The notes beneath the pieces were generated by a model. The model had not been told where the DNA came from, ran no database searches, and worked only from the letters and a program-made list of their open reading frames with translations. From the NCBI RefSeq assembly GCF_002083135.2, contig NZ_NBTM02000001.1, forward strand, positions 992,001 through 1,056,000: a stretch of 64,000 nt of DNA, read 5' to 3'. This DNA is from Aerococcus viridans (GTDB taxonomy: Bacteria > Bacillota > Bacilli > Lactobacillales > Aerococcaceae). The position numbers were made by a program, and so were the translations under genes. This document shows positions 18,672-56,188 of this stretch, in pieces; within the stretch, counting starts at the first letter, position 1; every line of letters begins with the position of its first letter.

Positions 18672-18846
18672 TAGGATGTGAGAGTCGACGCCAAGGGAGG
18701 AACGTTGGAAGGTTAGGGCAGTGGCTGACACAGTCAGGTACAACCTAATTCTAACGCATATAGGCGAATAAGCGCTGAAGCGCAAACTCGCCCATAATCT
18801 GAAACGCAGTCCTCCTTGGAGGCTTGAACCCGACTAAGGGTGTGAG
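18672..18846 (+). repeat. Dispersed structured repeat, copy 1, with internal insertion
   Basis: The element begins 3 nt after the ntpD stop with AGGATGTGAGAG. Outer arms CCAAGGGAGGA and TCCTCCTTGG pair; the inner hairpin is GGCTGAC/GTCAG. The conserved core GTTGGAAGGTTAGGGCAGT and CTGAAACGCAGT is present. Unlike the other copies it carries ~48 extra bases after ACAACCTAAT, which themselves contain GCGCTGAAGCGC and GGCGA/TCGCC pairing. Confidence 0.85.
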
Positions 18847-18937
18847 GCGCTATGTAAGCAATGTTAGCTAGTCTAATTGTAACCTTATGCTGCTTTCGAC
18901 TTGCACTTACTGATCATTCAACATAGTTTTCAAAGCG

Positions 18938-18977
18938 AGAGATCAAATCAATTCGAAGAATTGGTTTGGTCTCTTTT
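18938..18977 (+). terminator. Terminator downstream of the V-ATPase operon
   Basis: AGAGATCAAATCAATTC pairs over 17 bp (some G-U) with GAATTGGTTTGGTCTCT, loop of three, then TTT. It lies 270 bp after ntpD, beyond the repeat. Confidence 0.75.
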
Positions 18978-19024
18978 CATATATGACTATACTCTGAAAG
19001 ATGTCATAATAGGGAAGAAGTTCT

Positions 19025-19053
19025 TTACAAAGTATCAATAAAAATGGTATAAT
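19025..19053 (+). promoter_or_regulatory. Promoter of the SRP RNA gene
   Basis: TTACAA, 17 bp, TATAAT with an extended TGG. The expected transcription start is at about 19060-19061, the first base of the RNA. Confidence 0.85.
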
Positions 19054-19060
19054 TAAATTT

Positions 19061-19155
19061 GCCGAAAGGCCTTGCGGCAAGGGTAGAGATGTGAACCGGG
19101 TCAGATGGGGAACCAAGCAGCCCTAAGCATTGTCTATCCTGTGCTGTAAGTTAGT
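19061..19155 (+). ncRNA. ffs: Small bacterial signal recognition particle RNA (4.5S-type)
   Basis: The invariant domain IV is readable: GTCAG (19100-19104), apical stem TGG/CCA closed by the tetraloop GGAA (19109-19112), and AGCAG (19116-19120). Outside it AGGGTAGA pairs with TCTATCCT, and CTTGCGGCA with TGCTGTAAG (19142-19150). This is the short form without an Alu domain, as in most Lactobacillales. Exact ends are estimated from the promoter and the closing helix. The RNA binds Ffh for co-translational membrane targeting. Confidence 0.93.
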
Positions 19156-19182
19156 ATAAATTTAAACGGCTAATCGCCAAAC

Positions 19183-19215
19183 GCCAAGTGTGTCCATTCA
19201 CGCTTGGCTTTTTTT
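19183..19215 (+). terminator. Terminator of the SRP RNA gene
   Basis: GCCAAGTGTG and CACGCTTGGC pair (10 bp, one G-U), loop of six, followed by seven T. Confidence 0.9.
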
Positions 19216-19273
19216 ATGGGCATTTTTTAGAAGATTTGTATGCCATACCCGAATAAGGTAACAGCAATCAAAA

Positions 19274-19924
19274 TCAAGATAATCGGCAAATACGTGTGAT
19301 GAAGAAATCCATCCAGCACGCAATTCGTGTATAAATAGTCGTCAAACTACTCTTAAAGAATAGGGACATTAAAAGCAAGCCATACATAGGTAATACAAAC
19401 AAGACAAAGGAATAAAAGGCCAGTAGAAGCGTTGCTTGTAGATCAGTAATCGATACAGTTGCATAATAGCTTAGCAAGGCTAAATATGGCGCTATTGAGG
19501 AGATTTCAGCTAGACAAGAGGCAATACCCAGCATGATCAATGCGCCAGCTGATAAGTGCGTTTCTTCTGTTTGGGTAACGGCTTCCTTTTGCACATCTTC
19601 CTGGCTTGTTGCAGGTTGGTCTTTTTTCAAGTGGGTAAAGATTAAATAGGCGATGATCAAAAGACTGGCTACCAACGCTAGGTAACGCCAGGTGTATGGA
19701 TAAAGATGGTTTACCCAATTGAAGGCTTGGAAAATCCAATCAGAGAAACCAAAGTAGAAGGATAAACCGATTAAAAAGTTTCCCAGACCAATGGGGAAGA
19801 TAAAATACAAAATATGATATGGGGATTTAATTTTAGATTGTAAAATGAATGGCTGGGTGAGCGCAAAGGGATTAATGCCATCGATTAAGCCAGCAATTAA
19901 GGTCGTTGTGAAGACTGCAAACAT
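19274..19924 (-). CDS. CcdA/LysE-like multi-spanning membrane protein, C-terminus probably frameshifted
   Basis: The product (216 aa) has about five or six membrane segments. It starts with FTTTLIAGLIDGINPFALT, which resembles the GLxDxxNPCA start of CcdA/DsbD-type transporters but lacks the Cys. A soluble loop of ~30 residues lies mid-protein. AGGAGGAAAATC precedes the ATG at 19924. After Trp-Met-Asp the frame ends quickly (RICRLS, stop at 19276-19274). A frame one base away continues LDGFLHHTYLPIILILIAVTLF-type sequence, a further membrane helix, to a stop at 19229-19227. So the gene has probably lost one base near 19315. Function unknown. Confidence 0.7.
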   Translation of the reverse strand: MFAVFTTTLIAGLIDGINPFALTQPFILQSKIKSPYHILYFIFPIGLGNFLIGLSFYFGFSDWIFQAFNWVNHLYPYTWRYLALVASLLIIAYLIFTHLKKDQPATSQEDVQKEAVTQTEETHLSAGALIMLGIASCLAEISSIAPYLALLSYYATVSITDLQATLLLAFYSFVLFVLPMYGLLLMSLFFKSSLTTIYTRIACWMDFFITRICRLS

Positions 19925-19936
19925 GATTTTCCTCCT

Positions 19937-20010
19937 AAAAAAACCGGACAGACATCCAAGCAGCACACCTTCAATTCGAAGGGCCTATGTGCACTAGAAT
20001 ACCTATCCGG
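19937..20010 (-). promoter_or_regulatory. Structured 5' leader with terminator-like hairpin
   Basis: On the minus strand CCGGATAG (20010-20003) pairs with CTGTCCGG (19951-19944). Inside, GTGCACA/TGTGC and CCTTC/GAAGG form further stems. Seven U follow at once, and the ribosome binding site AGGAGG starts at the next base. A possible promoter, TTGATA (20048-20043) and TAAAAC (20024-20019), would start transcription just before it. It looks like an attenuator or riboswitch; I do not recognise a known class. Confidence 0.6.
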
Positions 20011-20074
20011 CGATAGTTGTTTTATTTTTTGGGCTTCTATCCTATCAAAAGAGTGATAGCGTGGCAAGGGTAGT

Positions 20075-22927
20075 TTACTGTAGATAGTTAAAGAGATTTC
20101 TTGGAATAGTTTCTTTAAAATGCAAGTTCATCTCCACAACGTTCCGGGTTTCACCATCACCACTCGGCTTTTCAAGTTGGGTAATCGTCGAAACATCAGG
20201 TGTCACTTCACCCAAATAATAAAACTCGGTTCCTTCATCATCGTCCTTTTTAATGAACATATGAATTTGCCAGTCGTCCGCATCCTGTAAGATTTTCACT
20301 TCAGGAGAGGCCAGTGTCCTTGGCGCTTTCGTGAACCAAGTCATCGTCTGTGGGTCTAACAAGGCATCTTCATAAGCAACTTGGGCACCAGTAAAGTCGT
20401 CGCCTTTATCCAGTGTCACAAAAATTGTAAAAATTTTCCGTTCCTTATCCTGAGTATAGCCCCCGATATTTTGGTCCACCAATTGCGTTTTCCATTTGAG
20501 CAGACGTAGGGCGTCACGACGTCCGTATTTTTGATACAAGGTTAAGTCTGACGATTTGTCATAACCGTCATTTAATAAGGTGGCCGTAGTGATTAAGTCA
20601 TTTAAATGATGTAAAAAGGTCGAATCTTTCTTTGCTGACTGGAATCCAGGGCTTAAGTTAATCCCCTCGTCTACTATGGTCACGACTTGCCCCGGTTGGT
20701 AAGTTTTCTTTGAACTACCGGCGTAATAATCGGTGGACAAGGTTCGCACCACTGACTGCACAGTAATAGGATCATGGCTTAAGTCATGTTTGGTCAAAAT
20801 GGTTTGAATCTTGGCCAAGCTTAAAGTATCTACACTTTCTTTAGCGAGCTCATTCAATAAGACTAGTTCATGCGCCCGTTTGCCTGGTAAGATTTCCCGC
20901 GATAAAAACTTTAAGATATCGTTGGCAGCTTTAGAAAGGGTATTGTCCCTTTCCTTGATGCTGGCCAAGAAAGCGGGGTAATTGTCCTTTTTGTTGGCTA
21001 ATAGATAAGGGTCGAAACTGTTGGTTGTTTCAAAATCAATCAACATTGGCACACGACCCAATTCATTTTTTAACTCTAGGTAGGCTTCTTTCAATTCTTT
21101 CATGGAGTCTATTTTCACAGCGTTTATAGAATCAAAGATTCGCTCTTTAGCAATGCTTTCGAAATTGATATTGGATAAACCGGAAATAAAGTTGGTGTTG
21201 AGGGTCGTCTTCCGCATGGCATCCTTACTGCGGTTTGAATTACCAGACAGGGCTACGGGAATCAGGTAGTTGTTCTTGTAGTTGCCGATAAAGTCGATGA
21301 TATTCACGAATTCCTTATCATCATGCTTACGAAGCCCACGCCCCATTTGTTGGACGAAGATGATGCTGGATTGGGTGTTACGCAACATGACCACCTGGTT
21401 GATTTCTGGAATATCAATCCCTTCATTAAAGATATCCACTGTAAAAATATAGTCTAAGAGACCTGAAGTTAACCGATTTACTTGCTTGGTTCGCACATCT
21501 TGGCTATCGCTACCAGATAGGGCGACAGTTTTATAACCACGGGCGTTGAATTTGTCGGATAGGGACTTGGCTTCCTCGTTGCGGCTACAGAAGACTAAGC
21601 CTTTGACCTTGTCTTTATCTAAACCATAGTAAGTCAACTTGTCCATGACATAATCAACCCGTTCGTCTAGGATTAGGTTCTTTAATTGGGTGGTTTCAGA
21701 AATCAATTCGCCGTCTTTTTCGAAGTCGGTCACCCCAAAGTAATGGAAGGGGGCTAGTAAATCAGCTTCAAGAGCATCTTGCAGGCGGATTTCATAGGCG
21801 ATATTGTAGTCAAAGAGTTCATATAAATTATAGCCATCTGTACGCTCAGGTGTAGCCGTTAAACCAAGTAGGAATTTGGGTTTAAAGTAGTCAAAAATCC
21901 GCTGGTAAGACGCTGATCCAGCCCGGTGGACTTCATCTACTAAGATATAATCGAATTCTTCTGGGTCAAATTGGTGTAAATGTTGGTCGCGGGCAATGGT
22001 CTGTTGGGTGGCGAAAACATACTTGGCTTGGCTATCCTTTTTGTTACCTGTGTAAAAACCAAATAAATCATCTGATTCTGCGTGCATCACCCTTTTAAAA
22101 GAAGCCATTGCGGAATGTAAGATTTGTTCCCTATGGACGATAAAAAGGACTTTTTCGGGTTTGGTTTCCAAGACATCAAAAGCCGCTAAGTAGGTTTTAC
22201 CGGTCCCAGTAGCCGCGATTACCAAGCCACGGTCGGCGCCATTTTGCCGTAATTCAATAAGACTATCTAAGGCTGGCTGTTGCATCTTATTAGGCACGAT
22301 AAAGTTCTTGGCAGGGTCCAGTAAGATACTAGTATCACGGTATTTAGGCGGTTGGAAGGAGTTGGCATATGCTTGAATCCAGTCTTCAGTTAAAGGCTGG
22401 GCACTCGCCCATTCCTTGTCTAAATGAGCCTGCATTTGATGGATAATGGCCCCGTGGTGGTAGGTAGTCAGTTTAACGTTCCACTCGTAATTGGTTTTCA
22501 AGGCATGGGTGGTCAAGTTTGACGACCCAATAATAAAGGAAGCGTGGTCCTTGTGTTCAAATAAATATCCTTTAGCGTGAAAAGCTTCTTTGTCAGAAAT
22601 GCGGACCTCCAAATTAGGAACTTTCAGCAAGGCCTTGAAAATATCTGGTGAGTTAAAGTCCAAATAGTTGGAGGTAATTAACCGGCCTTTTATCCCTCGT
22701 TGGTGTAAATCAAAGAGGTGGGTTTTCAGCGTGTTGAGACCACTCTCCGTCACAAATGCCACTGAAAATGTAAAAGTTTCGCTGGTATCCAATTCCTCCT
22801 GCAAGGTATTTAATAGGAAGATATTCTCATCAGGCTGATTAATAATCAACTCAGGGTCATACTGGGCATGCCCCAACTGCCTCTGATCAATAAAAGCATG
22901 CCGCAAAGATTGCGCTAATAAATCCAT
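20075..22927 (-). CDS. PLD-nuclease/DEAD-like helicase fusion with DUF3427 domain
   Basis: The product is 950 residues. Residues ~45-190 form a phospholipase-D-type phosphodiesterase domain (FHAKGYLFE ... IIGSSNLTTHALK, one HxK motif). Residues ~205-590 form a superfamily 2 helicase with Walker A ATGTGKT, DEVH box (VDEVHRAGS), LTATPER and a C-terminal QMGRGLRK motif VI. The remaining ~350 residues match the DUF3427 region found behind such helicases. The ATG at 22927 follows TGGAGG. These proteins are thought to act on nucleic acid in repair or defence, but the role is not settled. A Nudix gene lies 42 bp upstream on the same strand. Confidence 0.85.
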   Translation of the reverse strand: MDLLAQSLRHAFIDQRQLGHAQYDPELIINQPDENIFLLNTLQEELDTSETFTFSVAFVTESGLNTLKTHLFDLHQRGIKGRLITSNYLDFNSPDIFKALLKVPNLEVRISDKEAFHAKGYLFEHKDHASFIIGSSNLTTHALKTNYEWNVKLTTYHHGAIIHQMQAHLDKEWASAQPLTEDWIQAYANSFQPPKYRDTSILLDPAKNFIVPNKMQQPALDSLIELRQNGADRGLVIAATGTGKTYLAAFDVLETKPEKVLFIVHREQILHSAMASFKRVMHAESDDLFGFYTGNKKDSQAKYVFATQQTIARDQHLHQFDPEEFDYILVDEVHRAGSASYQRIFDYFKPKFLLGLTATPERTDGYNLYELFDYNIAYEIRLQDALEADLLAPFHYFGVTDFEKDGELISETTQLKNLILDERVDYVMDKLTYYGLDKDKVKGLVFCSRNEEAKSLSDKFNARGYKTVALSGSDSQDVRTKQVNRLTSGLLDYIFTVDIFNEGIDIPEINQVVMLRNTQSSIIFVQQMGRGLRKHDDKEFVNIIDFIGNYKNNYLIPVALSGNSNRSKDAMRKTTLNTNFISGLSNINFESIAKERIFDSINAVKIDSMKELKEAYLELKNELGRVPMLIDFETTNSFDPYLLANKKDNYPAFLASIKERDNTLSKAANDILKFLSREILPGKRAHELVLLNELAKESVDTLSLAKIQTILTKHDLSHDPITVQSVVRTLSTDYYAGSSKKTYQPGQVVTIVDEGINLSPGFQSAKKDSTFLHHLNDLITTATLLNDGYDKSSDLTLYQKYGRRDALRLLKWKTQLVDQNIGGYTQDKERKIFTIFVTLDKGDDFTGAQVAYEDALLDPQTMTWFTKAPRTLASPEVKILQDADDWQIHMFIKKDDDEGTEFYYLGEVTPDVSTITQLEKPSGDGETRNVVEMNLHFKETIPRNLFNYLQ

Positions 22928-23365: not shown

Positions 23366-23403
23366 CCGTATCACCTTTCAATCGTTTTTTTACTATCATT
23401 AAA

Positions 23404-23516
23404 ATCGGGTTGGACAAACCATAGATGACTGCGTTTCAGTTTAAGTTGAGCTGACATTGTCAGCCACTGCCCTAAACTTCCAACGTTCATCTGTTAACGG
23501 TTTGTCTCGCACCTAG
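23404..23516 (-). repeat. Dispersed structured repeat, copy 2
   Basis: Read on the minus strand it keeps the core AACGTTGGAAG...TTAGGGCAGTGGCTGAC...GTCAGC...CTGAAACGCAGT. The outer arms here are ACAAACC and GGTTTGT plus AGAT/ATCT, different from other copies but still complementary. It lies between the divergent Nudix and oxidoreductase genes. Confidence 0.8.
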
Positions 23517-34101: not shown

Positions 34102-35724
<1,623 letters not shown>

Positions 35725-35730
35725 AAAACA

Positions 35731-35853
35731 GGGTAAGAGAGCCGATGCCAAGAGAGGAACGATGGAAGATTAGGGCAGTGGCTGACAAAGTCAGCAACAA
35801 CCTTATCTGAAATGCAGCCCTCTCTGGAGGCTCGAACCTGACTAGGGTGAGAG
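35731..35853 (+). repeat. Dispersed structured repeat, copy 3
   Basis: It begins 7 nt after the groEL stop (GGGTAAGAGAG). Arms CCAAGAGAGG and CCTCTCTGG pair; inner hairpin GGCTGAC/GTCAGC; core ATGGAAGATTAGGGCAGT and ATCTGAAATGCAG. It ends in CTAGGGTGAGAG. The remaining gap to the amidase contains only a terminator. Confidence 0.85.
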
Positions 35854-39216: not shown

Positions 39217-39526
39217 AAGAAAATGATAAAAAATTAAAAATAAATGATAGATGTCATTTTTTTATGAGAATTGAATATTAAATCATAGAGGCAAAGAGTA
39301 ACAAGAGTACTGTCTTAAGCGAGTAGACGATTGGTGGAAGGTCTATGTCAGGAGAATTGTGAACCGCATTGCTGAGATAATTGAGTGAAGTAAGCTAATT
39401 AGATCATAAAAGTAGCTCAATTCGTTAGGCGCGTTAAGTCATCAAGCGTTGATGTATTTTTGTCAACAGTAGAGTGGTACCGTGGATATTAACCGCCTCT
39501 TCATTTGAAGGGGCGGATTTTTTTAT
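39217..39526 (+). promoter_or_regulatory. T-box leader, Arg (CGC) specifier, first copy
   Basis: Stem I base: GCAA (39291-39294) with TTGC (39369-39372). The specifier loop has AGTA (39297-39300) on one side and GAACCGCA (39361-39368) on the other, closed above by ACAA/TTGT. CGC at 39365-39367, followed by A, is the best specifier and reads Arg. The T-box sequence AGAGTGGTACCGTGG is at 39471-39485. The terminator is CCGCCTCTTC/GAAGGGGCGG followed by seven T. Uncharged tRNA-Arg should permit read-through into the transporter and argG. Confidence 0.88.
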
Positions 39527-39703: not shown

Positions 39704-41248
39704 ATGTTTAGTCAGCTGAAGAAGAAAAATCAAGTGGGATGGCAGTTGAAGGGTTTTAATTTGATGGTTATTTTGGCCATCTTGATCAGTCTTGTTGTAC
39801 CAGCCAAAAGTGTTTCGGCATCGTCTTGGACGGGTCCTGAAGCAGCGGCTGAGGTTGAGGGTGAAGATACATTACTGGCGGAGATTCAAGAACGTGGTGT
39901 GCTTAGAATGGGGACTGCTTCTGGTTACTCACCTTATGAGTTTACCGTTTTAAGAGATGGTCAAAATGAAGTCGTTGGGATTGATGTTTTCCTAGGGGAA
40001 TATATCGCAGACCAGTTAGGGGTTGAACTGGAAGTTGTTGATATGGAGTTTGGGTCATTGATCGCTTCGCTTGAAACGGGGGGGATCGACTTGATCATCG
40101 CTGGTATGGGGGCGACTGAAGAGCGTGACCAATCCATTGACTTCTCAAATGCCTATGAATTATCTGGTCAATCCATCGTTATTCGTGAAGGCGAAGAAGA
40201 TGAAATTGTAGATTATACCTCATTTGAAAATGGCGAGCATACTATTGCGGTATCTGAAGCGACATTACAAGAGGGTTATGTGAGAGACTTCTTTGAAAAT
40301 CCAGACTTGTTGATTATGCGTAAATCAGGGGATGCCATTGCGGCCTTAACTTCTGGTCAAGCAGATGGGGTATTACTAGATGATGCGGTTGCCGGCGCCA
40401 ATGCAGCTGAAAATGAAGGGTTAACCGTTATTGACTCTAACTTAGACGGCATGGTTGAAGACCAAGGTAAATCAATTGGTGTCCCGGAAAACCAACCATC
40501 CTTACAAACAGCTATCAACGATATTTTAGAAGATGTGAATAACCAAGGCTTAATCGATACCTGGACAGAAGCATCATTTGATATTATCGCTGGTGAAAAC
40601 GCGGGCACAGGTTGGACCACCTACTGGCCATATTTTTGGAACGGAATTAAAACAACCTTGATTATTGCAGGGGTATCCATCTTCTTCGGTATGATCTTGG
40701 GGATTTTCTTAGCCCTTATGCGTTTGACTAATAACCCAATCTTAAAATTGTTGGCGACAGCTTATATCGAGTTTGTGCGTGGTACACCATTAATGATCCA
40801 AGTCTTGTTCATGTTCCTTGGTGTAGGGTCTATCTTTGGCTGGTCCACAATGACTGCTGGGTTAGTGTCTGTATCCATGAACTCGGGTGCTTATATCGCG
40901 GAGATTATCCGTGGGGGTATTCAATCCGTTGATAAGGGGCAAGCTGAGGCTGCGCGTTCACTAGGGCTTGGTTACTGGCAAACCATGCGGAAGGTCATTT
41001 TCCCACAATCATTAAGATCGATTTGGCCGTCATTGGGGAATGAATTTATCACCTTGATCAAGGAATCGTCTATTGTATCGACCATTGGGGTGGCAGAATT
41101 AACCTTCCAAACACGTGCTGTAACAAGTATTACGTACCAAGCAGTGGTCCCATTATTTATTTCAATGATCATCTACTTCATCATGACTTATGCCTTGTCG
41201 CAAGTCTTGAATGTATATGAAAGAAAGATGAACCAAAAATACGCTTAA
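39704..41248 (+). CDS. Amino-acid ABC transporter, fused substrate-binding and permease protein
   Basis: The product (514 aa) has a signal peptide (~1-38), a polar-amino-acid binding domain (~55-285: GVLRMGTASGYSPYEF, VVGIDVFLGEYIAD) and a HisM/GlnP-type permease (~300-510) with the EAA loop GQAEAARSLGLGYWQTMRKVIFPQ. An ATPase partner is not encoded nearby. The start at 39704 gives 9 nt after AGGAGG; an ATG directly touching that site is less likely. The Arg T-box in front suggests arginine or a related cationic amino acid as substrate. Confidence 0.9.
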   Translation: MFSQLKKKNQVGWQLKGFNLMVILAILISLVVPAKSVSASSWTGPEAAAEVEGEDTLLAEIQERGVLRMGTASGYSPYEFTVLRDGQNEVVGIDVFLGEYIADQLGVELEVVDMEFGSLIASLETGGIDLIIAGMGATEERDQSIDFSNAYELSGQSIVIREGEEDEIVDYTSFENGEHTIAVSEATLQEGYVRDFFENPDLLIMRKSGDAIAALTSGQADGVLLDDAVAGANAAENEGLTVIDSNLDGMVEDQGKSIGVPENQPSLQTAINDILEDVNNQGLIDTWTEASFDIIAGENAGTGWTTYWPYFWNGIKTTLIIAGVSIFFGMILGIFLALMRLTNNPILKLLATAYIEFVRGTPLMIQVLFMFLGVGSIFGWSTMTAGLVSVSMNSGAYIAEIIRGGIQSVDKGQAEAARSLGLGYWQTMRKVIFPQSLRSIWPSLGNEFITLIKESSIVSTIGVAELTFQTRAVTSITYQAVVPLFISMIIYFIMTYALSQVLNVYERKMNQKYA

Positions 41249-43792: not shown

Positions 43793-43835
43793 GTAGTGGA
43801 CGTGGTATAACCACATACTATTTTAATAAATATTC

Positions 43836-44063
43836 GTAGATACAAAGAGTAAATTATCGACTGGTGTAGCGAGAGGCGTTGGTGTGAGGCCTTACAGAAT
43901 AGATAATTGAACCGCATTGTTGAGAAAAATGACTGAACCTTAGATAGTAGGTCATTTCGCTAATGACGTTACCATTCCAAGTAAGGGGAGGTGAAGGCCA
44001 CCCCTAAAATTAGAGTGGTACCGTGGATCTCCGCCTCTGTTATAGAGGTGGGGATTTTTTTTA
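43836..44063 (+). promoter_or_regulatory. T-box leader, Arg (CGC) specifier, second copy
   Basis: Stem I base ACAA (43842-43845) pairs with TTGT (43917-43920), compensating the GCAA/TTGC of the first copy. The loop is AGTA opposite GAACCGCA (43909-43916), closed above by AATTATC/GATAATT. Specifier CGC is at 43913-43915. GGTGTGAGGCC is in the apical part. T-box AGAGTGGTACCGTGG is at 44012-44026. The terminator is ATCTCCGCCTCT/AGAGGTGGGGAT (12 bp) followed by eight T. Confidence 0.9.
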
Positions 44064-44159: not shown

Positions 44160-45680
44160 ATGAAATATATGAAACAAATCATTTTGGTTTGTATGACACT
44201 TGTCCTAGCCATGGTTGGGTTGAGTCAGAGTCCCGTTTTGGCAACTGAAGATGGTCAATCAGCGGCATCTACCATTGATGCCAGTGAAGCAACAGCACCG
44301 GGAGAGGATACTTTATACCAAGACATTCAAGACCGAGGGGTATTACGGGTTGGGACTAACTCTACGTATGCACCTTTTGAATTCTCTATTTTAAAAGATG
44401 GGAAAAATCAGGTTGTTGGACTAGACATCTTCTTAGCACAGAAAATTGCGGACGACTTAGGGGTTAAACTTGAAGTTGTCGATATGGAGTTTTCGAATTT
44501 ATTAACATCATTGGATACGGGTCAAATTGATATTGTATTAGCGGGAATGACTTCCACTGAAGAGCGAGCTAAATCAGTAGATTTTTCTGATATCTACCAA
44601 GTTTCTGGTCAATCATTTGTTATTCAAGAAAGTAAAGTGAGTGAAATTACAGATGATAGCTACTTTTCAAAAGGTGGAAAAATCTCTATTGGAGAAGGGA
44701 CCACACAACAGTTATTAGTTGGAGAATATTATCCTAATTCAGAAGTACAAGTCATGCGTACGACAACTGATTCAATTTCAGCTTTAGATTCAGGTTTAGT
44801 TGACGGGGTATTATTAGATGAGGACGTAGCCGGAGCGTATGCGGCAGAAAATCCTAATTTAACAGTTATCGAAGCGAATTTACCAATCCAAGATCCTGGT
44901 AAGGCAGTAGCAATGCCAAAAGACCAACCTACATTACAAGCAGCAGTTAACGAATCCATTGCAGATGCTCAAGAACAAGGTTTAATTGACCAATGGTTGG
45001 AGGAATCTTACCAAATTATTGAAGACAATCGTCAATCAACTTGGGCAGCTTATGCGCCTTATTTCGTGAATGGTTTGAAAACAACCTTAGTCATTTCAGC
45101 GACAGCGATTTTCTTTGGTTTAATTATTGGTGCAGCGCTAGCGTTAATGCGTTTATCGGAAAATAGATTAGTTGATTTGATAGCTCAAGCTTACATCGAA
45201 GTAGTTCGTGGGACACCACTAATGATTCAAGTATTATTTGTTTACCTCGGTTTTGCTGGTATGTTTGGTTGGTCAACCATGACATCAGGTTTGGTTGCGG
45301 TATCTCTAAACTCAGGTGCTTATATTGCAGAAATTATCCGTGGAGGGATCAACTCGGTTGATAAGGGGCAAGCTGAAGCCGCACGTTCACTTGGTTTAGG
45401 CTACTGGACGACGATGCGGAAGGTTATCTTCCCACAATCATTAAGATCGATTTGGCCGTCTCTTGGGAATGAATTTGTATCCTTAATCAAAGAATCATCA
45501 ATCGTATCTACAATCGGGGTAGCGGAATTAACATTCCAAACCCGTAATGTATCAACGATTACCTTTAACGGTATCATCCCACTAATCATCTCAATGGCTA
45601 TCTACTTTATGCTAACCTTTACACTAACGAAGTTATTAAATGTGTATGAACGCAAGATGAATGAGAAATATGCTCAATAA
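44160..45680 (+). CDS. Amino-acid ABC transporter, fused substrate-binding and permease protein (paralogue)
   Basis: The product (506 aa) has the same plan as the protein at 39704: signal peptide (~1-30), binding domain (GVLRVGTNSTYAPFEF, VVGLDIFLAQKIAD) and permease with the identical EAA loop start GQAEAARSLGLGYW. The permease half is much more alike between the two than the binding half, so the substrate range may differ. AGGAGG precedes the ATG. No ATPase gene is adjacent. The Arg-specific T-box in front suggests arginine import. Confidence 0.9.
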   Translation: MKYMKQIILVCMTLVLAMVGLSQSPVLATEDGQSAASTIDASEATAPGEDTLYQDIQDRGVLRVGTNSTYAPFEFSILKDGKNQVVGLDIFLAQKIADDLGVKLEVVDMEFSNLLTSLDTGQIDIVLAGMTSTEERAKSVDFSDIYQVSGQSFVIQESKVSEITDDSYFSKGGKISIGEGTTQQLLVGEYYPNSEVQVMRTTTDSISALDSGLVDGVLLDEDVAGAYAAENPNLTVIEANLPIQDPGKAVAMPKDQPTLQAAVNESIADAQEQGLIDQWLEESYQIIEDNRQSTWAAYAPYFVNGLKTTLVISATAIFFGLIIGAALALMRLSENRLVDLIAQAYIEVVRGTPLMIQVLFVYLGFAGMFGWSTMTSGLVAVSLNSGAYIAEIIRGGINSVDKGQAEAARSLGLGYWTTMRKVIFPQSLRSIWPSLGNEFVSLIKESSIVSTIGVAELTFQTRNVSTITFNGIIPLIISMAIYFMLTFTLTKLLNVYERKMNEKYAQ

Positions 45681-45853: not shown

Positions 45854-45988
45854 CGTCGACTCTCACACCCTTTAGTCGAGCTCGTGCCTCCAAAAAGCAC
45901 TGCGCTTCAGATTAAGTTGTAGCTGACTTGGTCATCTACTGCCTTAATTTTCCAACAGTTCCTTTCTGAGCGTCGACACTCACACCCT
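45854..45988 (-). repeat. Dispersed structured repeat, copy 4
   Basis: On the minus strand it reads GGGTGTGAGTGTCGACGCTC, core GTTGGAAAATTAAGGCAGT, inner hairpin TAGATGAC/GTCAGCTA, then TAATCTGAAGCGCAGT and closing GACTAAAGGGTGTGAGAG. Arms AGAAAG and CTTTTT still pair. No gene lies upstream on this strand. The rest of 45725-46133 shows no gene. Confidence 0.8.
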
Positions 45989-47724: not shown

Positions 47725-47848
47725 ATTTTCTACTATAATTTAAAGGTTTTTTAACTAGAATAGGCTTATAATCCAGTCGGGTTATGGTAGAATATTAGGG
47801 ATTATAGGTGCTTACTTATAGTATATATATAATGAAATGGGTGAAAAA

Positions 47849-49243
47849 ATGCAAAAAAACGGAGAATGGACGAACTGGTACCGCGTGGTTATCGCGGCAA
47901 CAGAAGCGTTAATCTTGTTCCTTTCTTATCTTGTTTCATTCTTTTTGCGGTATGGTCGATATGTACCTTTGAAAAACTATGAAGCTTTCCAAGGGGCAAT
48001 TGGTTGGATATTAATTATCTTTGTATTTATCAATATATTATTTGGGGTTTACATCCTTTATGATAAAACCAAAGGCGACCTCTTCTTCATTACCATCATC
48101 AGTCAAGGGATATTAGCAGTTGTTGCTATGGTTTTAAGTTTTGCTGGTAGATGGCTAGCCTTTCCGCGTTCAGTCGTCTTGATTGATTTTGCGGTTAGTG
48201 TAATCATGCTTTATGTTTTTAGAGCCTTAGTCTTCGATATTTATCGACGCTATGCATCGACAAAACGGGTAATGATTGTTGGATCTGAAGAAGCTGTTTT
48301 TCCAGCAATATATAATTTCAAAAATTCAAAAAGTACTCGTCATATTGTGACACACGTGGTGTTAGAAGATTACTACCGCAATGTGAAGAGTCGTTTAGAT
48401 GAGTATGATATTGTATACCTTGCATCGCAGATTGATGAGAGTGAAAAATTAAAAATTTATGACTTGCTAATGCGAGCGAATAAAAAACTATTCTTGAATT
48501 CTAAATTTGAAAACCTGGTAATGGTAAATCCAAATATTATGAATTTTGAAGATGAATCCATTATTGAAACCTCAGACTTCGCAATTCCAGCAGACCAGGC
48601 GTTGCTCAAACGAGGATTAGATATTCTGATAGCTTTAATTGGTTTAATATTAGCATCACCAATTATGTTGATTACGGCAATTATTATTAAATTAACTTCT
48701 AAAGGTCCAGTATTCTACCGCCAAGTACGTATTACTAAAGGTGGCGAGGAGTTTGATATCTTGAAATTCCGTTCAATGACAACGGATGCTGAAGTGAAAT
48801 CAGGTCCAATGATTGCAACGAAAAATGACGCACGTGTCACAACAGTTGGTAAATATATTCGTGCCTTGCGTATCGATGAATTGCCACAGTTATTGAATGT
48901 GCTACACGGAGATATGTCCATGATTGGACCACGTCCTGAGCGACCATTCTTCGTGAACCAATTCCAAGAAGAAAATCCGCATTACTACCTACGTCATAAC
49001 GTACAAGCAGGTATCACGGGTTACGCGCAAGTCTATGGTAAATATGCTACAGACTTTAACTCAAAATTGAACTTTGATTTAATTTACATTAAACAATATT
49101 CAATGTTCCTAGACTTCAAGATTCTATTACAAACCATAAAAATTCTCTTCGACAAAGTGTCTTCATCAGGCATTGACGAAGACGAAAAACCAACAGTAAC
49201 AAGAGAAGAAGCAGAAGAAATGAACATCGACGTCATAGGATGA
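47849..49243 (+). CDS. Polyprenyl-phosphate sugar phosphotransferase (exopolysaccharide initiator)
   Basis: The product (464 aa) has four N-terminal membrane helices (~10-130), a nucleotide-binding-like middle region (RVMIVGSEEAV) and the C-terminal bacterial sugar transferase domain: KRGLDILIALIGLILASPIMLI, then GPVFYRQVRITKGGEEFDILKFRSM, and IGPRPERPFF. It transfers a sugar-1-phosphate to undecaprenyl phosphate, the first step of capsule or wall polysaccharide. No glycosyltransferase cluster surrounds it. The ATG at 47849 follows GGGTGA; one four codons upstream is possible. Its TGA stop lies in the repeat that follows. Confidence 0.9.
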   Translation: MQKNGEWTNWYRVVIAATEALILFLSYLVSFFLRYGRYVPLKNYEAFQGAIGWILIIFVFINILFGVYILYDKTKGDLFFITIISQGILAVVAMVLSFAGRWLAFPRSVVLIDFAVSVIMLYVFRALVFDIYRRYASTKRVMIVGSEEAVFPAIYNFKNSKSTRHIVTHVVLEDYYRNVKSRLDEYDIVYLASQIDESEKLKIYDLLMRANKKLFLNSKFENLVMVNPNIMNFEDESIIETSDFAIPADQALLKRGLDILIALIGLILASPIMLITAIIIKLTSKGPVFYRQVRITKGGEEFDILKFRSMTTDAEVKSGPMIATKNDARVTTVGKYIRALRIDELPQLLNVLHGDMSMIGPRPERPFFVNQFQEENPHYYLRHNVQAGITGYAQVYGKYATDFNSKLNFDLIYIKQYSMFLDFKILLQTIKILFDKVSSSGIDEDEKPTVTREEAEEMNIDVIG

Positions 49244-49366
49244 GAGTGAGACCGTTAAGCTCAATAACTCTGGAAGATTAGTGCCGTGACACACAAGGTG
49301 TGTCGCAAACTAATCTGAAGAGGACTTGAGCTGGTCGAACGAACTCGACTTAATAGGATAGGGTGT
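49237..49366 (+). repeat. Dispersed structured repeat, copy 5 (variant with TTAAGCTCAA arm)
   Basis: It starts TAGGATGAGAG, whose TGA is the stop codon of the sugar transferase gene. Arms AAGCTCAA and TTGAGCT; inner hairpin GACACAC/GTGTGTC; core TGGAAGATTAGTGCCGT and CTAATCTGAA. It ends in GACTTAATAGGATAGGG, which starts the next copy. Confidence 0.85.
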
Positions 49367-49532
49367 GAGAGTCGACGTCAAGAAAGGAACGTTGGAAGAT
49401 TAAGGCAGTAGATGGCGAAGTCATCTACAACATAATCTGAAACGCAGTCCTTTCTGGAGACTCGAACCCGACTAAATAGGATGTGACACCTGGCTGCTCT
49501 GACGAACCCAACTAAACAGGATGTGAGACCTT
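49361..49532 (+). repeat. Dispersed structured repeat, copy 6, plus truncated ends
   Basis: It starts GGGTGTGAGAGTCGACG. Arms CAAGAAAGGA and TCCTTTCTGG; inner hairpin TAGATGGC/GTCATCTA; core GTTGGAAGATTAAGGCAGT and TAATCTGAAACGCAGT. It is followed by two short pieces, GACTAAATAGGATGTGAC and AACTAAACAGGATGTGAG, that look like remnants of further copies. Confidence 0.85.
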
Positions 49533-49733: not shown

Positions 49734-51227
49734 ATGAAGACAACGACCAACGATAGCCTTGCGCTTCACACAGATTTATATGAAATCAATATGATGAAGA
49801 CTTATTGGGACGCTGGAAAAGCTGACCAACAAGCGGTTTTTGAAGTGTACTTCCGTAAAAATCCGTTTGAAAGTGGCTATGCCATTTTCGCAGGCCTAGA
49901 ACGTGTCATTCAGTATGTACAAAACTTGAAATTTACCGACGACGATATCGCCTACTTACGGGAAACACAAGGCTATCCCGAAGATTTCTTAGACTATTTG
50001 AAAAACTACCACTTCGATGCAACAATTCGTTCCATGGAAGAAGGGGAAATTGCCTTTTCAAATGAACCGTTGATGCAAATTAAAGGGTCATTAGCTGATT
50101 GTACTTTAATCGAAACGGCAGTATTAAATATTATCAACTATCAAACTTTAATTGCGACAAAAGCATCACGTATCCGGAATGTTGCTGGTGATGACGCATT
50201 AGCTGAATTCGGTTCAAGACGTGCCCAAGAAATGGATGCGGCTATTTGGGGAGCTCGCGCGGCTTATATTGGTGGATTCGACTCTACCTCTAATGTACGC
50301 GCAGGTAAATTATTCAATATTCCAATTTCAGGAACCCATGCGCATGCTATGGTACAAGCTTATCAAAGTGATTATGAAGCGTTTAAAGCTTATGCAAATG
50401 CCCATGAAAAATGTACATTCTTGGTCGATACTTATGATACCCTTCGTTCAGGAGTGCCAAATGCGATTAAAGTGGCTAATGAGATGGAAGATAAATCTCG
50501 TTTTGTCGGCGTTCGTATCGACTCTGGCGATATCTCCTACTTATCATCAAGTATCCGCAAGATGTTGGATGAAGCAGGTTACCCGGATGCTATTATTTCT
50601 GCGTCAAACGATTTAGATGAAAAAACGATCTTAAACTTGAAGATGCAAGGTGCTAAAATTGATGCTTGGGGTGTAGGTACTCAGCTGATTACAGCCTTCG
50701 ACCAACCAGCCTTAGGGGCCGTTTACAAACTATGTGCCATTGAAGATGAAAATGGCGATATGGTCCCAACCATGAAAATTTCGTCATCTCCAGAGAAAAT
50801 TACTACACCAGGTGAGAAACAAATTTGGCGTATTACCCGCAAGAAAGATGGTAAATCTGAAGGGGACTATATTACAACCATGAATGAAAATCCTAATGAC
50901 GCTGAGTCTATCTTCATGTTCCATCCAACTTATACTTACATTAACAAGACAGTTCGCCGTTTCAATGCACGGCCATTATTAAAAACCATCATCGACAAGG
51001 GTGAATTGGTTTACGATGTGCCATCACTTGAAACCGTTCGTGATTTTTCACGCGAGCACTTGGAAGCCCTATGGTCAGAATACCGCCGTATGTTGAATCC
51101 AGAACCATACCCAGTTGATTTATCGCAAGAATTATATGATTTAAAGATGAATTCAATCGCTGAAATTCGTGAACGTATCAATGAAGAGTTTAAAGAATCC
51201 GAGTTAAACGGTGACAACGAAGACTAA
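49734..51227 (+). CDS. pncB: Nicotinate phosphoribosyltransferase
   Basis: The product (497 aa) makes nicotinate mononucleotide from nicotinate and PRPP. It opens with [20 protein letters not shown], typical of the family, and contains EFGSRRAQ (~162) and [13 protein letters not shown] (~262). TTGGAGGGAATAAG precedes the ATG. nadE starts 35 bp later and the two form a NAD-salvage operon; nadD is not in the window. Confidence 0.96.
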
Positions 51228-51261
51228 GTTGATGAATAAAGCAATAAAAGGGGAGAATACC

Positions 51262-52092
51262 ATGCGTTCATTACAAGAAGAAATTATAAATGCCTTAAAA
51301 GTAGCACCTAGTATTAATCCAGAAGCAGAAATCAGACGTACCATCGATTTCATCAAGGCATACTTTCACAAGTATCCATTTCTAAAAAGCTTAGTATTAG
51401 GCATTTCTGGTGGGCAAGATTCAACCCTAGCCGGCACACTATGCCAAATGGCCATAACTGAAATACGCGAAGAAACTGGTGACGACAAGTATCAATTCAT
51501 CGCAGTCCGTCTTCCTTATGGCAACCAAGCCGATGAAGCTGATGCTATGGACGCTATAGACTTCATGGCAGCTGATCAAACTGTACGCGTTAACATCAAG
51601 CCAGCTGTTGATGCTACCGTTGAAGAATTGGAAAAGGGTGGCCTTACCATTTCTGACTTCAATAAAGGAAATATCAAAGCACGCCAACGAATGTTGGTAC
51701 AATATGCGATCGCAGGTGAAAATGCAGGTGTCGTGGTAGGAACAGACCATGCTGCTGAATCAGTGACAGGCTTCTATACCAAGTTTGGTGATGGCGCAGC
51801 AGATATCCTACCTATTTGGCGGTTAAATAAACGTCAAGGACGTGCTATCCTTGAATATTTAGATGCCCCAGAACATTTATACGTTAAGGTGCCAACGGCT
51901 GACTTAGAAGAAGACCGTCCCGGCTTAGCCGATGAAGTAGCCCTAGGTGTTACTTACCAAGACATAGACGACTACTTAGAAGGCAAAGAAGTATCCGAAG
52001 AAGCAGCCGAAAAAATCGAAAACTGGTACCTAAAAACCCAACACAAACGCGAATTACCAATCACCATTTATGATGAATGGTGGAAGAAATAG
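51262..52092 (+). CDS. nadE: NH3-dependent NAD+ synthetase
   Basis: The product (276 aa) amidates nicotinate adenine dinucleotide to NAD+. The PP-loop SGGQDST is at 49-55; [19 protein letters not shown] and the C-terminal [14 protein letters not shown] match. There is no glutaminase domain, so ammonia is the donor. AAAGGGGAG precedes the ATG at 51262 by 7 nt. The stop TAG is the first part of the repeat that follows. Confidence 0.96.
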
Positions 52093-52255
52093 GGTGTGAG
52101 TGAGACCGTTAAGCTCAATAACGATGGAAGACTATAGCCGTATCACACGAGTGTGATGCAATATAGTCTGAAGCGGGCTTGAGCTGGTCGACTGAACCCG
52201 ACTAAATAGGATGCGAAGTACGAGCTCAACTTTATAGGATGCGAGAGCCGAGTCA
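52089..52255 (+). repeat. Dispersed structured repeat, copy 7, plus truncated ends
   Basis: It starts ATAGGGTGTGAG, whose TAG is the nadE stop codon. Arms AAGCTCAA and TTGAGCT; inner hairpin ATCACAC/GTGTGAT; core ATGGAAGACTATAGCCGT and ATAGTCTGAAGCGGG. The pieces TAGGATGCGAAG and TAGGATGCGAGAG follow. Confidence 0.85.
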
Positions 52256-53207: not shown

Positions 53208-53356
53208 AGTGCACTCCTTCTTATAATGTCAGTCTTTATATTAGATAAAACCAAATTTATAAGCAATTAGATTGCTCAAGGCTTTAATGGTTTGATATTT
53301 CGCATGAAAAATTTGGTCATGTTAAAATAGGTAAAGAATTATAAAGGAGGACTAGC

Positions 53357-54088
53357 ATGGACGATAAAATCCAACAATTTGAACAACAAATTAAGGATAG
53401 CAAATGTATTGTCTTTTTTACAGGAGCGGGAATGTCTACAGCCTCTGGTATTCCTGATTTCCGGTCAGCGAATGGCCTTTTCATGGAAAACTTAGGAGGG
53501 ACTTATAGCCCAGAAGAAGTCGTTTCTCATCATTTCTTTACACAATACCCCAAGGAATACTTTGCCTACCACTTTGATAAATTAGTCTATCCAGAAGCCA
53601 AGCCTAATATAGGGCATGAATTTATCGCTAGCTTAGAAGGGACTGGTAAAGATGTTTCTGTGGTTACGCAAAATATAGACGGTCTGCACCAAAAAGCTGG
53701 CTCATCAGCGGTTTATGAATTACACGGCAGCACCTTAGATAATTACTGTGTATCGTGTGGCCATCATTATAAATTAGAAGAACTTCAATTAGACCAGGAT
53801 GGTATTCCGCGCTGTCCAATTGATCAAGGCATTGTTAGACCTAATATTGTCTTATACCAAGAACAATTAGACCAAGATGTAGTGAACGGGGCAGTGGATA
53901 AAATCCGCCAAGCAGATTTATTAGTTATCTTGGGAACAAGCCTAGTCGTTTATCCAGCGGCAGGATTCTTAAATTACTTCCGAGGACAATATCTAACCGT
54001 AGTAAACAAATCACCACTTCAAATTCCGTATCACGATGCCTTAGTATTTGAAGACACTATTGAAAAAGTATTTAGCCAACTGAGTTAA
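53357..54088 (+). CDS. NAD-dependent protein deacylase, Sir2 family
   Basis: The product (243 aa) has FTGAGMSTASGIPDFRS (21-37), TQNIDGLH (104-111) and the catalytic His123 in ELHGS. The zinc module is altered: Cys131, Cys134 and Cys153 are present, but the fourth ligand position is Asp156 (RCPIDQG). GTSLVVYPAA (~196-205) completes the NAD site. AAAGGAGG precedes the ATG. It removes acyl groups from lysines using NAD+. Confidence 0.92.
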   Translation: MDDKIQQFEQQIKDSKCIVFFTGAGMSTASGIPDFRSANGLFMENLGGTYSPEEVVSHHFFTQYPKEYFAYHFDKLVYPEAKPNIGHEFIASLEGTGKDVSVVTQNIDGLHQKAGSSAVYELHGSTLDNYCVSCGHHYKLEELQLDQDGIPRCPIDQGIVRPNIVLYQEQLDQDVVNGAVDKIRQADLLVILGTSLVVYPAAGFLNYFRGQYLTVVNKSPLQIPYHDALVFEDTIEKVFSQLS

Positions 54089-54224
54089 ATCAGTATGTTA
54101 AAGAAAAAACGCCTTACACAAAATTGTAGAGCATTTTCTTTTTGGGAACCTTTATTATACAATATAATATATAGTTGTTTTCGTTAACTTGATACGGATA
54201 TTTTGAAAGGTCGTGCTAACACAT

Positions 54225-55340
54225 ATGGACAAATTTAAAATGATGGCTATTCTATTTTCAATGAGTTTTTTAGCATCTTGTGGACTAATAGAGAGCAATA
54301 AAACTATCCAATCAAGTCAATCTAGCGATGTTGAATCTAATAATACGCAATCTGCTGAAGTTCCGACAGCGGAAAGTAGTGAAAGTGATAGTGATCAAAG
54401 TCTAGCTGAATTTTCCGATGAAGAAATTGAGTATGCCAGAGTATGGTTAAATGAGGGCAAGAATATGGATGTTTCAAATTTGAAAGTAACTTTGATACCT
54501 AAGGGTTCATTAATCAATCCGGATAACGTAAATTACGGTACCTACGATGAAGATATAATCGAAATACGAGGACCGCAAGAAACCGATGGCCATGTTGTGT
54601 ATAGCGTTCGAGATAAAGGGTCGGGTTACATTCATATTTATCCAATTCCATATATTTTCGATCACGCAGAATCTCAAGAATTTTCAAAATATGAAAATAT
54701 TGAAGAAAATACAGAAGCTGTTTATCTTGAACCAGGAGATAGCCAAACCGTGAGTCAATTAATTAATGTAATTGATATTTCGAAAAAAGAATCATTCATG
54801 TCTATGGATACCGCGATTGAAATATACGAAGAAGGATTGAAGGCAACATCTAATGGAGAAACTAGTGGCTTGAATTCTGAATTTTATAGTCGCGATTATT
54901 TCGCAATTGAGCAAGATGAACCAGATTCATTGATGCTTTCATTTGAAAATCAAGGTCGTGGTGGACAAGATTACTACTTCTTTAAAGGTGAAGATGACAC
55001 TATAAAGATTGACACTTATTTTGAATCTTATGAAAAAGATGAGCCAGATATTCAATGGACCTATGATATCTATACACAAACATTTACTGAAGAACTCAGC
55101 CAAGAAAGAGAAGACCAGCAAAAAGTCATTGAACCTTTTACAGAAGAAACTGCTTTTGAATATATAAAAGAGCAAGAGGGCTTTAACGATGATATTGCAG
55201 TACAAGTTTCTAAGACTAGAGATGATGGTAGTATTGAAATGACACTGATATCAAAAGAATTACAAGGCAATGGAGGCAGTGGTACAGTTGATACTTTTAT
55301 CATTTACCCAAACGGTAACTACAATTCAAAGCATGATTAA
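54225..55340 (+). CDS. Lipoprotein of unknown function
   Basis: The product (371 aa) has a signal peptide with lipobox FLASC (Cys19), then a Ser/Glu/Asn-rich linker to ~65. Residues ~70-160 form one domain (DEEIEYARVWLNEGKNMDVS). Residues ~195-371 may hold a second and third beta-rich unit (ETSGLNSEFYSRDYFAIEQD, AFEYIKEQEGFNDDIAVQV). The acidic composition is typical of Gram-positive surface lipoproteins. ATG at 54225; AAAGG lies 16 nt upstream, so the ribosome site is poor. Function unknown. Confidence 0.75.
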   Translation: MDKFKMMAILFSMSFLASCGLIESNKTIQSSQSSDVESNNTQSAEVPTAESSESDSDQSLAEFSDEEIEYARVWLNEGKNMDVSNLKVTLIPKGSLINPDNVNYGTYDEDIIEIRGPQETDGHVVYSVRDKGSGYIHIYPIPYIFDHAESQEFSKYENIEENTEAVYLEPGDSQTVSQLINVIDISKKESFMSMDTAIEIYEEGLKATSNGETSGLNSEFYSRDYFAIEQDEPDSLMLSFENQGRGGQDYYFFKGEDDTIKIDTYFESYEKDEPDIQWTYDIYTQTFTEELSQEREDQQKVIEPFTEETAFEYIKEQEGFNDDIAVQVSKTRDDGSIEMTLISKELQGNGGSGTVDTFIIYPNGNYNSKHD

Positions 55341-55404
55341 GGTACAAATATGTAGTAATATATACTTGATTGCATGAGTAGTAAAATTAAATAATTATTG
55401 AAAA

Positions 55405-55434
55405 AGAGCCTTACACAAAATTGTAGGGCGTTTC
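55405..55434 (+). terminator. Terminator of the lipoprotein gene
   Basis: GCCTTACA and TGTAGGGC pair (8 bp, one G-U). The same 19 bases GCCTTACACAAAATTGTAG occur at 54111-54129 after the sirtuin gene, in a less perfect hairpin. Confidence 0.55.
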
Positions 55435-55499
55435 TTAGTCTATAAATCTAATAAACTTAATGTTTTATCAATTTAAATTGAATAGGGCTTATATTCTAA

Positions 55500-55650
55500 A
55501 ATATATAGGCCAGAGGCTGGAACTATCTAGCACGCCTTTGCAGTGAAGCAAGGATTTCTGACCCACATCAGACTGTTAGGGGATACCCCTTACAGAATGA
55601 GTAGTCAGAAAAGCCCTTAGAAAATTATTCTAAGGGCGGTCTCACTGCTA
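55500..55650. other. Unassigned intergenic segment with strong hairpins
   Basis: No gene is visible. GCCCTTAGA/TCTAAGGGC (55613-55637) and AGGGG/CCCCT (55578-55590) form perfect hairpins. TAGCACGCC near the left and CTGCTAGTTGAGC near the right suggest a second class of palindromic element joined to the repeat that follows. Confidence 0.4.
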
Positions 55651-55764
55651 GTTGAGCTTTGCAGGATAGACAGTTCTCCGCTTCAGAATAGTTAGCGTCA
55701 CACTTTGTGTGCCACGGCACTATTCTTCCACCGTCTCCTGTCTAAACATCCTGCATCACATCCT
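55651..55764 (-). repeat. Dispersed structured repeat, copy 8
   Basis: On the minus strand arms GCAGGAT and ATCCTGC plus AGACAG and CTGTCT pair. Inner hairpin GGCACAC/GTGTGAC; core GTGGAAGAATAGTGCCGT and CTATTCTGAAGCGG. The ends carry AGGATGTGATGC. Confidence 0.8.
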
Positions 55765-55831
55765 ATTTTTAAGGCAGTGATAGGTATGTGGAAGCCGAAA
55801 GGCTACCCCATAAATATTAAGTTTGCGCTGT

Positions 55832-56188
55832 CTCACATCCTGTGAAGTTGAGCTCGCACCTCCAGAAAGAACTGCGTTTCAGCTTAGTTTGTAGCTGACT
55901 GTGTCATCTACTGCACTAATCTTCCAACGTTTTCTTTCTGAGCGTCGGTGCTCACATCCTGTGAAGTTGAGCTCGCACCTCCAGAAAGAACTGCGTTTCA
56001 GCTTAGTTTGTAGCTGACTGTGTCATCTACTGCACTAATCTTCCAACGTTTTCTTTCTGAGCGTCGGTGCTCACATCCTGTGAAGTTGAGCTCGCACCTC
56101 CAGAAAGAACTGCGTTTCAGCTTAGTTTGTAGCTGACTGTGTCATCTACTGCACTAATCTTTCAACGTTTTCTTTCTGAGCGTCGGTG
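55832..56188 (-). repeat. Three tandem copies of the structured repeat, period 119 bp
   Basis: Units at 55832-55950, 55951-56069 and 56070-56188 differ at about two or three positions only. On the minus strand each reads AGGATGTGAGCACCGACGCT, arms AGAAAGAA and TTCTTTCT, core GTTGGAAGATTAGTGCAGT, hairpin TAGATGAC/GTCAGCTA, and AAGCTGAAACGCAGT. The array starts 12 bp after the stop codon of the FAD oxidase gene; that stop TAA is in GACTAAACAGGATGCGAG, the usual repeat boundary. Confidence 0.92.

Follow-up and report, generated by a model that had tools for sequence, protein, structure and literature searches.

The repeats described here are best explained as copies of a non-autonomous, MITE-like mobile element of about 116 bp, which probably resides mainly in the 3′ untranslated region (UTR) of the preceding gene and is recognised in its folded form. 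All copies adopt the same rod-like fold, and their frequent placement at stop codons, usually on the sense strand of the gene, is a new observation.

Copies of the element in the window and in the genome

The window, a 64-kb stretch of Aerococcus DNA, harboured 11 full-length copies of the repeat by model match, in agreement with the original prediction of a dispersed family of at least ten copies. The predicted coordinates deviated by no more than a few bases, or by as much as about 20 for minus-strand copies, and all of the complementary arms quoted were present in the window copies. The top window copies scored about 120 bits (E about 1e-31) with the full-length model, although these scores are not independent of the model, as the window copies were part of its building set. 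In the genome itself (2.0 Mb), 56 matches to the full-length model were obtained at E ≤ 0.01; the two weakest had E about 0.0025, and one of them was the antisense of another copy. Short cores by themselves were weak evidence for a family: TGGAAGANTTANG, with up to two mismatches, gave 35 matches against 24.3 ± 4.8 expected (2 of 100 shuffles reached 35), and TAATCTGAANCG gave 27 against 20.8 ± 4.8 expected (12 of 100 shuffles reached 27). The full-length model was decisive, and settles the reality of the repeat family in the window.

Copies were assigned to classes A, A2, B, C and D, which are our own labels. On the plus strand, a class A copy (18673..18836) starts 4 nt past the stop of the gene for V/A-type ATPase subunit D (18033-18668) and bears an additional hairpin of about 45 nt (about 18750-18794) flanked by TAAT direct repeats, and another class A copy (35730..35844) starts 5 nt past the stop of the chaperonin gene groEL (34102-35724). 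The sugar transferase gene (47837-49243) ends in a TGA that lies within the first bases of a class C copy (49237..49351, plus strand), after which a class A copy (49360..49474, plus strand) follows in tandem. A further class C copy (52091..52204, plus strand) supplies, with its first bases, the end of the TAG stop codon of the NAD synthase gene (51211-52092). On the minus strand, three class A copies form a 119-bp tandem triple, the first of which (56083..56198) lies 2 nt past the stop of a FAD-binding oxidase gene (56201-57529), followed by the second (55964..56079) and the third (55845..55960); a class B copy (55649..55764, minus strand) is located 80 bp from the triple. No stop codon adjoins the class A2 copy at 23402..23515 (minus strand), 27 nt upstream of a NUDIX gene, or the class A copy at 45873..45988 (minus strand), which is flanked by two plus-strand genes. 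Several copies are adjoined by truncated units of 28-40 bp and by additional left ends, neither of which featured in the original prediction; two of the truncated units, found by eye at 49478..49517 and 52208..52235 (both plus strand), consist of a left end fused to a right end.

Fold, covariation and favoured strand

All copies form one 116-nt rod in which the internal loops are conserved and the helix sequence is free. The rod comprises three helices and a terminal hairpin: the outer and second helices are separated by a GYTM bulge, the second and third by a TGGA/GAA internal loop, and the third helix and the hairpin by a GCM/AA internal loop. The window copies are single rods of 114-116 nt (164 nt in the copy with the extra hairpin), with no terminator within the unit. 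This fold was retained in other Bacilli, outside the Aerococcaceae. Conservation of the TGGA/GAA loop supports the purine-rich internal loop, with GGA facing GAA, that had been proposed; a K-turn reading of this loop was weighed by eye and dropped.

Covariation was judged by shuffles, by slid registers and by compensatory changes counted on trees, using a structure drawn by the analyst from the own-genome copies. Among 26 own-genome copies, double changes occurred in 30 of 38 pairs, and the covariation score was 0.550, compared with 0.191 for shuffled alignments and at most 0.106 for slid registers. For 103 diverse copies, 90.7% of cells were paired (53.6% when shuffled), there were 1294 double-change cells (375 when shuffled), and the covariation score was 0.842 (0.199 when shuffled). 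On the tree of these 103 copies, 574 compensatory changes (paired-to-paired double changes) were counted against 20-42 in slid registers, and the corresponding figures for another tree were 82 and 3-6. Pairs altered on both sides were no more numerous in the 103 copies than in shuffles (67 of 500 shuffles reached their number). Alignments A3, A4 and A5 were made by covariance model and so lean toward the structure. Alignment A2 used sequence alone, and omits class D (two D copies were displaced by one base by MAFFT), chimera L010, the insert-bearing 18673 copy, the middle copy of the triple (an identical one) and the truncated units. The covariation decisively establishes a structure that persists while its sequence changes, and so upholds the predicted selection on a structure whose stems covary and whose unpaired bases are conserved.

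The fold of one strand seems to be favoured, because G-U cells outnumbered A-C cells (46 vs 13; ratio 3.5 vs 1.6 when shuffled, reached by 0 of 1000 shuffles), a count with some bias to G-U over A-C since the structure was drawn from own-genome copies. Of the 9 window copies folded (all 11 except 18673 and 55964), 8 had the more stable fold on the sense strand. In most cases the favoured strand is the one that reads in the sense direction of the gene before it. An RNA or a DNA structure had been proposed without a choice between strands, and the G-U and A-C counts now lean to one of them.

Placement at stop codons

Placement was assessed with genes called by a simple ORF rule, starting from 278 model matches, of which 275 were used (three weak ones were left out) and 238 remained after duplicate removal, in 140 clusters. 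These loci are the best-scoring matches per genome, a non-random sample, and some are orthologous (88 upstream proteins in 70 groups). Where a cluster had a co-directional upstream gene, the element started -10 to +17 nt from the stop of that gene in 76 of 96 cases, whereas its 3′ side was at a stop codon in 2 of 80. In 46 convergent regions, 39 elements were at a stop on the upstream side and 1 on the 3′ side. The same pattern was seen in the Aerococcaceae alone (68/86 at a stop vs 2/68 on the 3′ side) and outside this family (17/22 vs 0/19), the latter set overlapping the main one (14 of the 140 main clusters are also non-Aerococcaceae) and holding 31 loci in 32 rows, as one G058 locus was entered twice. 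Stop-codon placement is not universal: of the 134 clusters for which an upstream gene was called, 38 had it on the opposite strand, and 20 clusters among the 96 co-directional ones were not at a stop; the same applied to 2 of the 7 window sites (23402 and 45873). The earlier description of the elements as intergenic was incomplete, given that most clusters preceded by a co-directional gene begin at its stop. As many copies start at gene ends, the element looks like a mobile module for mRNA tails.

Certain host genes were recurrent. The element was found at the stop of proS (identified by NCBIfam, and chosen because it was recurrent) in G376, G316, G309, G025, G349 and G006, representing four genera; 68 of the 74 proS sites examined (of 75 matches, that of G003 being at a contig end) were without a full copy at the stop. 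At groEL, the element was at the stop in Aerococcus and in G376, and no element was present at this site in the close relative G013. It was also at the stop of the sugar transferase gene in Aerococcus species.

Distribution and signs of mobility

Presence of the element was patchy, with matches in 11 of 15 members of the genus and 47 of 76 members of the family; four members of the genus Aerococcus gave no match to the element model. Copy numbers from the 40-genome searches are lower bounds, because filters were stricter and few candidates were scored per genome (9, or 48 in one search). Nine near-identical copies were found in G165, in whose lineage a 118-nt rod is joined to a terminator hairpin (about 172 bp). 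A site occupied in G165 stands unoccupied in G058; element plus terminator are in place of a plain terminator, the target stem being replaced, and no target-site duplication was seen at this clean pair. Similarly, proS is followed by element plus terminator in G006 and G010, where G000 and G013 have a plain terminator, an exchange whose direction we infer. Orthologous sites carry differing classes in relatives, and the 45873 site has other classes in G013 and G006. Another left end often came after a copy in Aerococcus, and head-to-tail arrays of mixed classes were observed.

Searches for Y1_Tnp (PF01797) gave no match in the carriers G001, G002, G009, G012, G013, G014, G075, G165, G087 and G101, and RVT_1 (PF00078) was absent from several carriers, such as G000, G010, G012 and G013. 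Each enzyme being absent from several carriers, a Y1 transposase or a reverse transcriptase was rejected as a general helper. Two adjacent window copies had no match in plasmid or phage records. The G165 element had one match in plasmid records (Aerococcus tenax CP127381) and none in phage records, and two elements of other Bacilli had none in plasmid records. A wide pattern scan, which may omit records very near the window's genome, returned 104 stretches from named genomes: 49 from Aerococcus, one from Fundicoccus ignavus (another member of the Aerococcaceae) and 54 from others (Photobacterium, Vibrio etc.). The last were taken as chance pattern hits, because they gave no match to model R1 at 1e-4 or to model R2 at 0.01.

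Discussion

At the gathering score, only T-box and SRP families of Rfam were matched, and no family for the element; for one window stretch nothing was obtained at E ≤ 5. Further Rfam matches were all below the gathering score, almost all of them on the G165 terminator. The literature queries made for Aerococcus and for Lactobacillales repeats returned no paper on such repeats. The original statement that no named family with this core was known held for Rfam, but needs qualifying, because the EFAR/Efa-1 repeats of Enterococcus are of the same kind. These MITE-like repeats of Enterococcus faecalis are the closest known system, compared by description only. Efa-1 is given as 163 bp in 65 copies, with a pair of adjacent stem-loops (PMC2267715), and EFAR is counted among bacterial MITEs (PMC3733652). 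Efa-1 and EFAR are presumably the same repeat. Both this repeat and the present element are multicopy, structured and intergenic, and the G165 lineage has the same plan, a rod plus a terminator hairpin. In the EFAR paper of 2007, EFAR insertion is said to replace a resident stem-loop. The difference between G165 and G058 resembles this replacement, and that at proS (G006 and G010 vs G000 and G013) may do so; both were seen in relatives and not in window copies. In contrast, EFAR/Efa-1 has paired stem-loops of about 163-170 bp, whereas the window copies are single rods without a terminator of their own, and the excerpts of PMC2267715 and PMC3733652 do not mention stop-codon placement or a fold shared beyond Enterococcus. 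REP repeats are likewise palindromic and adjoin genes, and GTAG REPs are described as often contributing the TAG with which the neighbouring ORF ends, but REPs measure 20-40 bp (PMC3733652) as against 116 here, and a Y1 transposase was not found in several carriers of the present element. The bcr1-bcr18 repeats of the Bacillus cereus group, likened here by description, are also dispersed, with lengths of 100-400 bp (PMC6542083); they are partly transcribed in UTRs, and bcr3 accompanies a longer mRNA half-life, a conclusion from few transcripts that the authors call hard (PMC3446304).

Recurrence of the element at the stop of the same gene across genera (proS in four genera, groEL in Aerococcus and G376), its presence at the sugar transferase gene in Aerococcus species and the fold kept in other Bacilli might indicate a cis-regulatory RNA at gene 3′ ends, which serves the host, is no longer mobile and needs nearness to the stop for its function. 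We regard this as unlikely, as the element is patchy, with 68 of 74 proS sites lacking a full copy at the stop, no groEL element in G013 and no match in four genus members, and the class at one site varies between relatives; proS, moreover, was chosen because it was recurrent. It is improbable too that the element is recognised as single-stranded DNA, for which IS200/IS605 and integron attC sites are the models, with a fold serving recombination only. Conserved asymmetric loops and one favoured strand would suit a folded single-stranded DNA substrate, as would the mixed head-to-tail arrays, but Y1_Tnp is absent from several carriers, and single-stranded DNA recognition alone does not predict a placement that tracks the sense strand of genes. 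Plain sequence homology and array decay, with no selection on structure, would fit the frequent occurrence of tandem duplicates and truncated units; this explanation is contradicted by the compensatory changes (574 vs 20-42 in slid registers) and by both covariation scores, and is given almost no weight.

For the preferred explanation, a mobile element recognised in folded form, a trans-acting factor most likely recognises the folded sense strand, either during movement of the element or during mRNA processing, and this would be the most likely reason why the fold and loops are kept while the helices are free. The element would enter at gene 3′ ends through the action of a mobility enzyme, a resident terminator would sometimes be exchanged for the element with its own terminator, and local multiplication would proceed via tandem duplication and exchange between classes. 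Copies in a 3′ UTR are presumably transcribed, and would most likely alter mRNA decay or 3′-end processing, for example by RNase III.

A wider reading, which we advance tentatively and consider doubtful, is that the Bacilli harbour a superfamily of mobile structured RNAs, units running from stop codon to terminator that take the place of the host 3′ UTR and spread with neither a transposase nor a reverse transcriptase dedicated to them. The target would then be the end of the translated gene itself, with recognition as folded sense RNA, and placement would reflect an RNA- or translation-coupled step, such as an mRNA cut at the stop codon. To our knowledge, the small structured repeats of Firmicutes have mostly been named one genome at a time. 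Here, a common 116-nt fold with nearly free helix sequence joins copies from the Aerococcaceae to those of other Bacilli, and links these copies to the stop codon, an address that is both precise and specific for orientation. The movement of such repeats, for which no transposase is evident, and their siting at gene ends thereby become accessible to direct tests.

Copies, fold and covariation

The window carries 11 full copies of the 116-nt element, on both strands, in keeping with the original prediction of at least ten; the positions predicted were right to within a few bases, except that minus-strand copies could be off by as much as about 20. The two short cores by themselves were barely above chance level. 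Copies from the window's own genome were aligned over 116 columns, almost gap-free, and sorted into classes that we labelled A, A2, B, C, D and E, in which the helices differ and the loops are the same. Comparison with Rfam found no family that fits the element, as had been anticipated.

A 38-pair rod was drawn by us from the own-genome copies. In alignment A2 (26 copies, class D being excluded owing to a one-base misalignment), 89.8% of cells paired, compared with 70.1% after shuffling. Both-side changes occurred in 30 of the 38 pairs in the own-genome copies, and when partners were shifted by 1-3 columns only 30-37% of cells paired. Many of the mismatched cells were G-A (63 of 982 cells) and, by eye, class A has G-A mismatches in tandem at two columns. 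Among 103 copies from many genera, 90.7% of cells paired (53.6% shuffled) and double-change cells numbered 1294 against 375. The separation was weaker for pairs with both-side changes (38 of 38 against 36.5; 67 of 500 shuffles reached 38) and for further pair types (147 against 138; 6 of 500 shuffles reached 147). Paired-to-paired double changes counted on a tree numbered 82 in A2 and 574 in A5, a CM-made alignment of diverse copies, with 3-6 and 20-42, respectively, in slid registers. The earlier claim of a selected structure is borne out by this excess of compensatory changes, and plain homology is excluded as a full account of the family.

The fold of one strand seems to be preferred. Alignment A2 contains 46 G-U and 13 A-C cells, where column shuffling expects 99 and 62, and the observed ratio was reached by none of 1000 shuffles; the model-made alignments gave 214 versus 41 and 123 versus 38. 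The sense fold was more stable than the antisense fold in eight of the nine window copies folded (mean -41.8 versus -37.2 kcal/mol).

Placement at stop codons

An upstream gene was called for 134 of 140 clusters of neighbouring copies, and was co-directional in 96. The element started -10 to +17 nt from the upstream stop codon in 76 of these 96, and at -2 to +5 nt in 57, whereas on the 3' side a facing gene had its stop equally close in 2 of 80 clusters. Across 46 convergent regions, 39 elements lay at the upstream stop versus one at that of the 3'-side gene. The corresponding counts were 68/86 versus 2/68 in Aerococcaceae alone and 17/22 versus 0/19 outside this family, the latter set partly overlapping the loci of the 140 clusters; the own genome contributed 16 co-directional clusters, 13 of them at a stop. 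The stop was made by a TA preceding the element plus its first base in 17 cases (TAG in 15), and by a TGA among its first bases in eight. Five of seven window sites lie at stop codons (V/A-type ATPase subunit D, groEL, a sugar transferase, NAD synthase and an FAD-binding oxidase); those at 23402 and 45873 do not.

Rfam identified the bacterial small SRP RNA (19064-19163, plus strand) and two plus-strand T-box leaders (39277-39503 and 43828-44041) in the window. The leaders stand ahead of a pair of similar genes, one leader per gene (73% identity between 40710-41009 and 45139-45438); the second gene is a solute-binding/permease fusion.

Distribution and turnover

The own genome has 56 matches at E <= 0.01, and 11 of 15 Aerococcus genomes, this one included, have matches. 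There are 84 at E <= 0.001 in A. sp. 1KP-2016, and A. agrisoli has many. Search model R1 found the element in 31 of 395 genomes of the order (12 of 80 genera), and model R2 in 47 of 76 genomes of the family (13 of 21 genera) and 12 of 398 of class Bacilli, ten of them outside the order. The copies from this class-wide search have the same loops, some of them lying in tandem arrays.

At orthologous sites of four close Aerococcus genomes the address was kept and the class differed, as judged by eye: at 45.8 kb the own genome carries class A, G013 class E and G006 class B, and at 49.2 kb arrays differ or a chimera is present. One class was kept in most of the four at the 52.1 kb and V/A-ATPase sites, and the groEL site of G013 has no element. 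A chimeric element at L010:1472-1587 joins a 5' class D to a 3' class A part and, by eye, its outer helix is consequently broken. Truncated units joining both ends look like hairpin deletions.

The proS gene (TIGR00408) was selected because it recurred among upstream proteins; of the 74 proS sites inspected, those of six genomes, belonging to four genera, have a full copy at the stop. It has a plain terminator in the own genome and G013, and a different terminator within the same flanks alongside the full element of G006 and the internally deleted one of G010. Nine near-identical copies, each made of a rod, a linker and a terminator hairpin, are present in G165, a member of a different family of the order. 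At one of these sites the same two genes flank a plain terminator in G058; G165 has the A-tract and T-tract of this terminator, with rod plus terminator in place of the intervening hairpin.

Some elements contain, at differing points, another small hairpin repeat about 45 nt long (TCTAACGCAT...GCGAGT...ACTCGC) (window 18750-18794; loci L019 and L060/L194; the 45.8 kb site of G013). Four A. agrisoli loci (L100, L160, L170 and L176) have elements at a similar point within another repeat (GCCGTGGGACC ... GGTCTC).

Relation to known repeats and possible mechanism

Published work describes Efa-1 of Enterococcus faecalis as a 163-bp pair of adjacent stem-loops in 65 copies (PMC2267715) and counts EFAR in Enterococci among MITEs (PMC3733652). 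The rod and terminator hairpin of the G165 lineage fit this plan; the window copies differ in having no second stem-loop, and for this reason the window family was not assigned to EFAR. The two are likely members of one clan.

Neither Y1_Tnp (10 of 24 genomes) nor RVT_1 (12 of 25) tracked the presence of the element, several carriers lacking each. A Y1 transposase match (2020606-2020968) lies near two tandem elements at G010:C1:2020074-2020968, the site orthologous to 45.8 kb in the window. On balance, the findings point to a mobile, non-autonomous 3'-UTR element. The folded sense strand would be what is recognised, and this recognition may serve either movement or mRNA processing.
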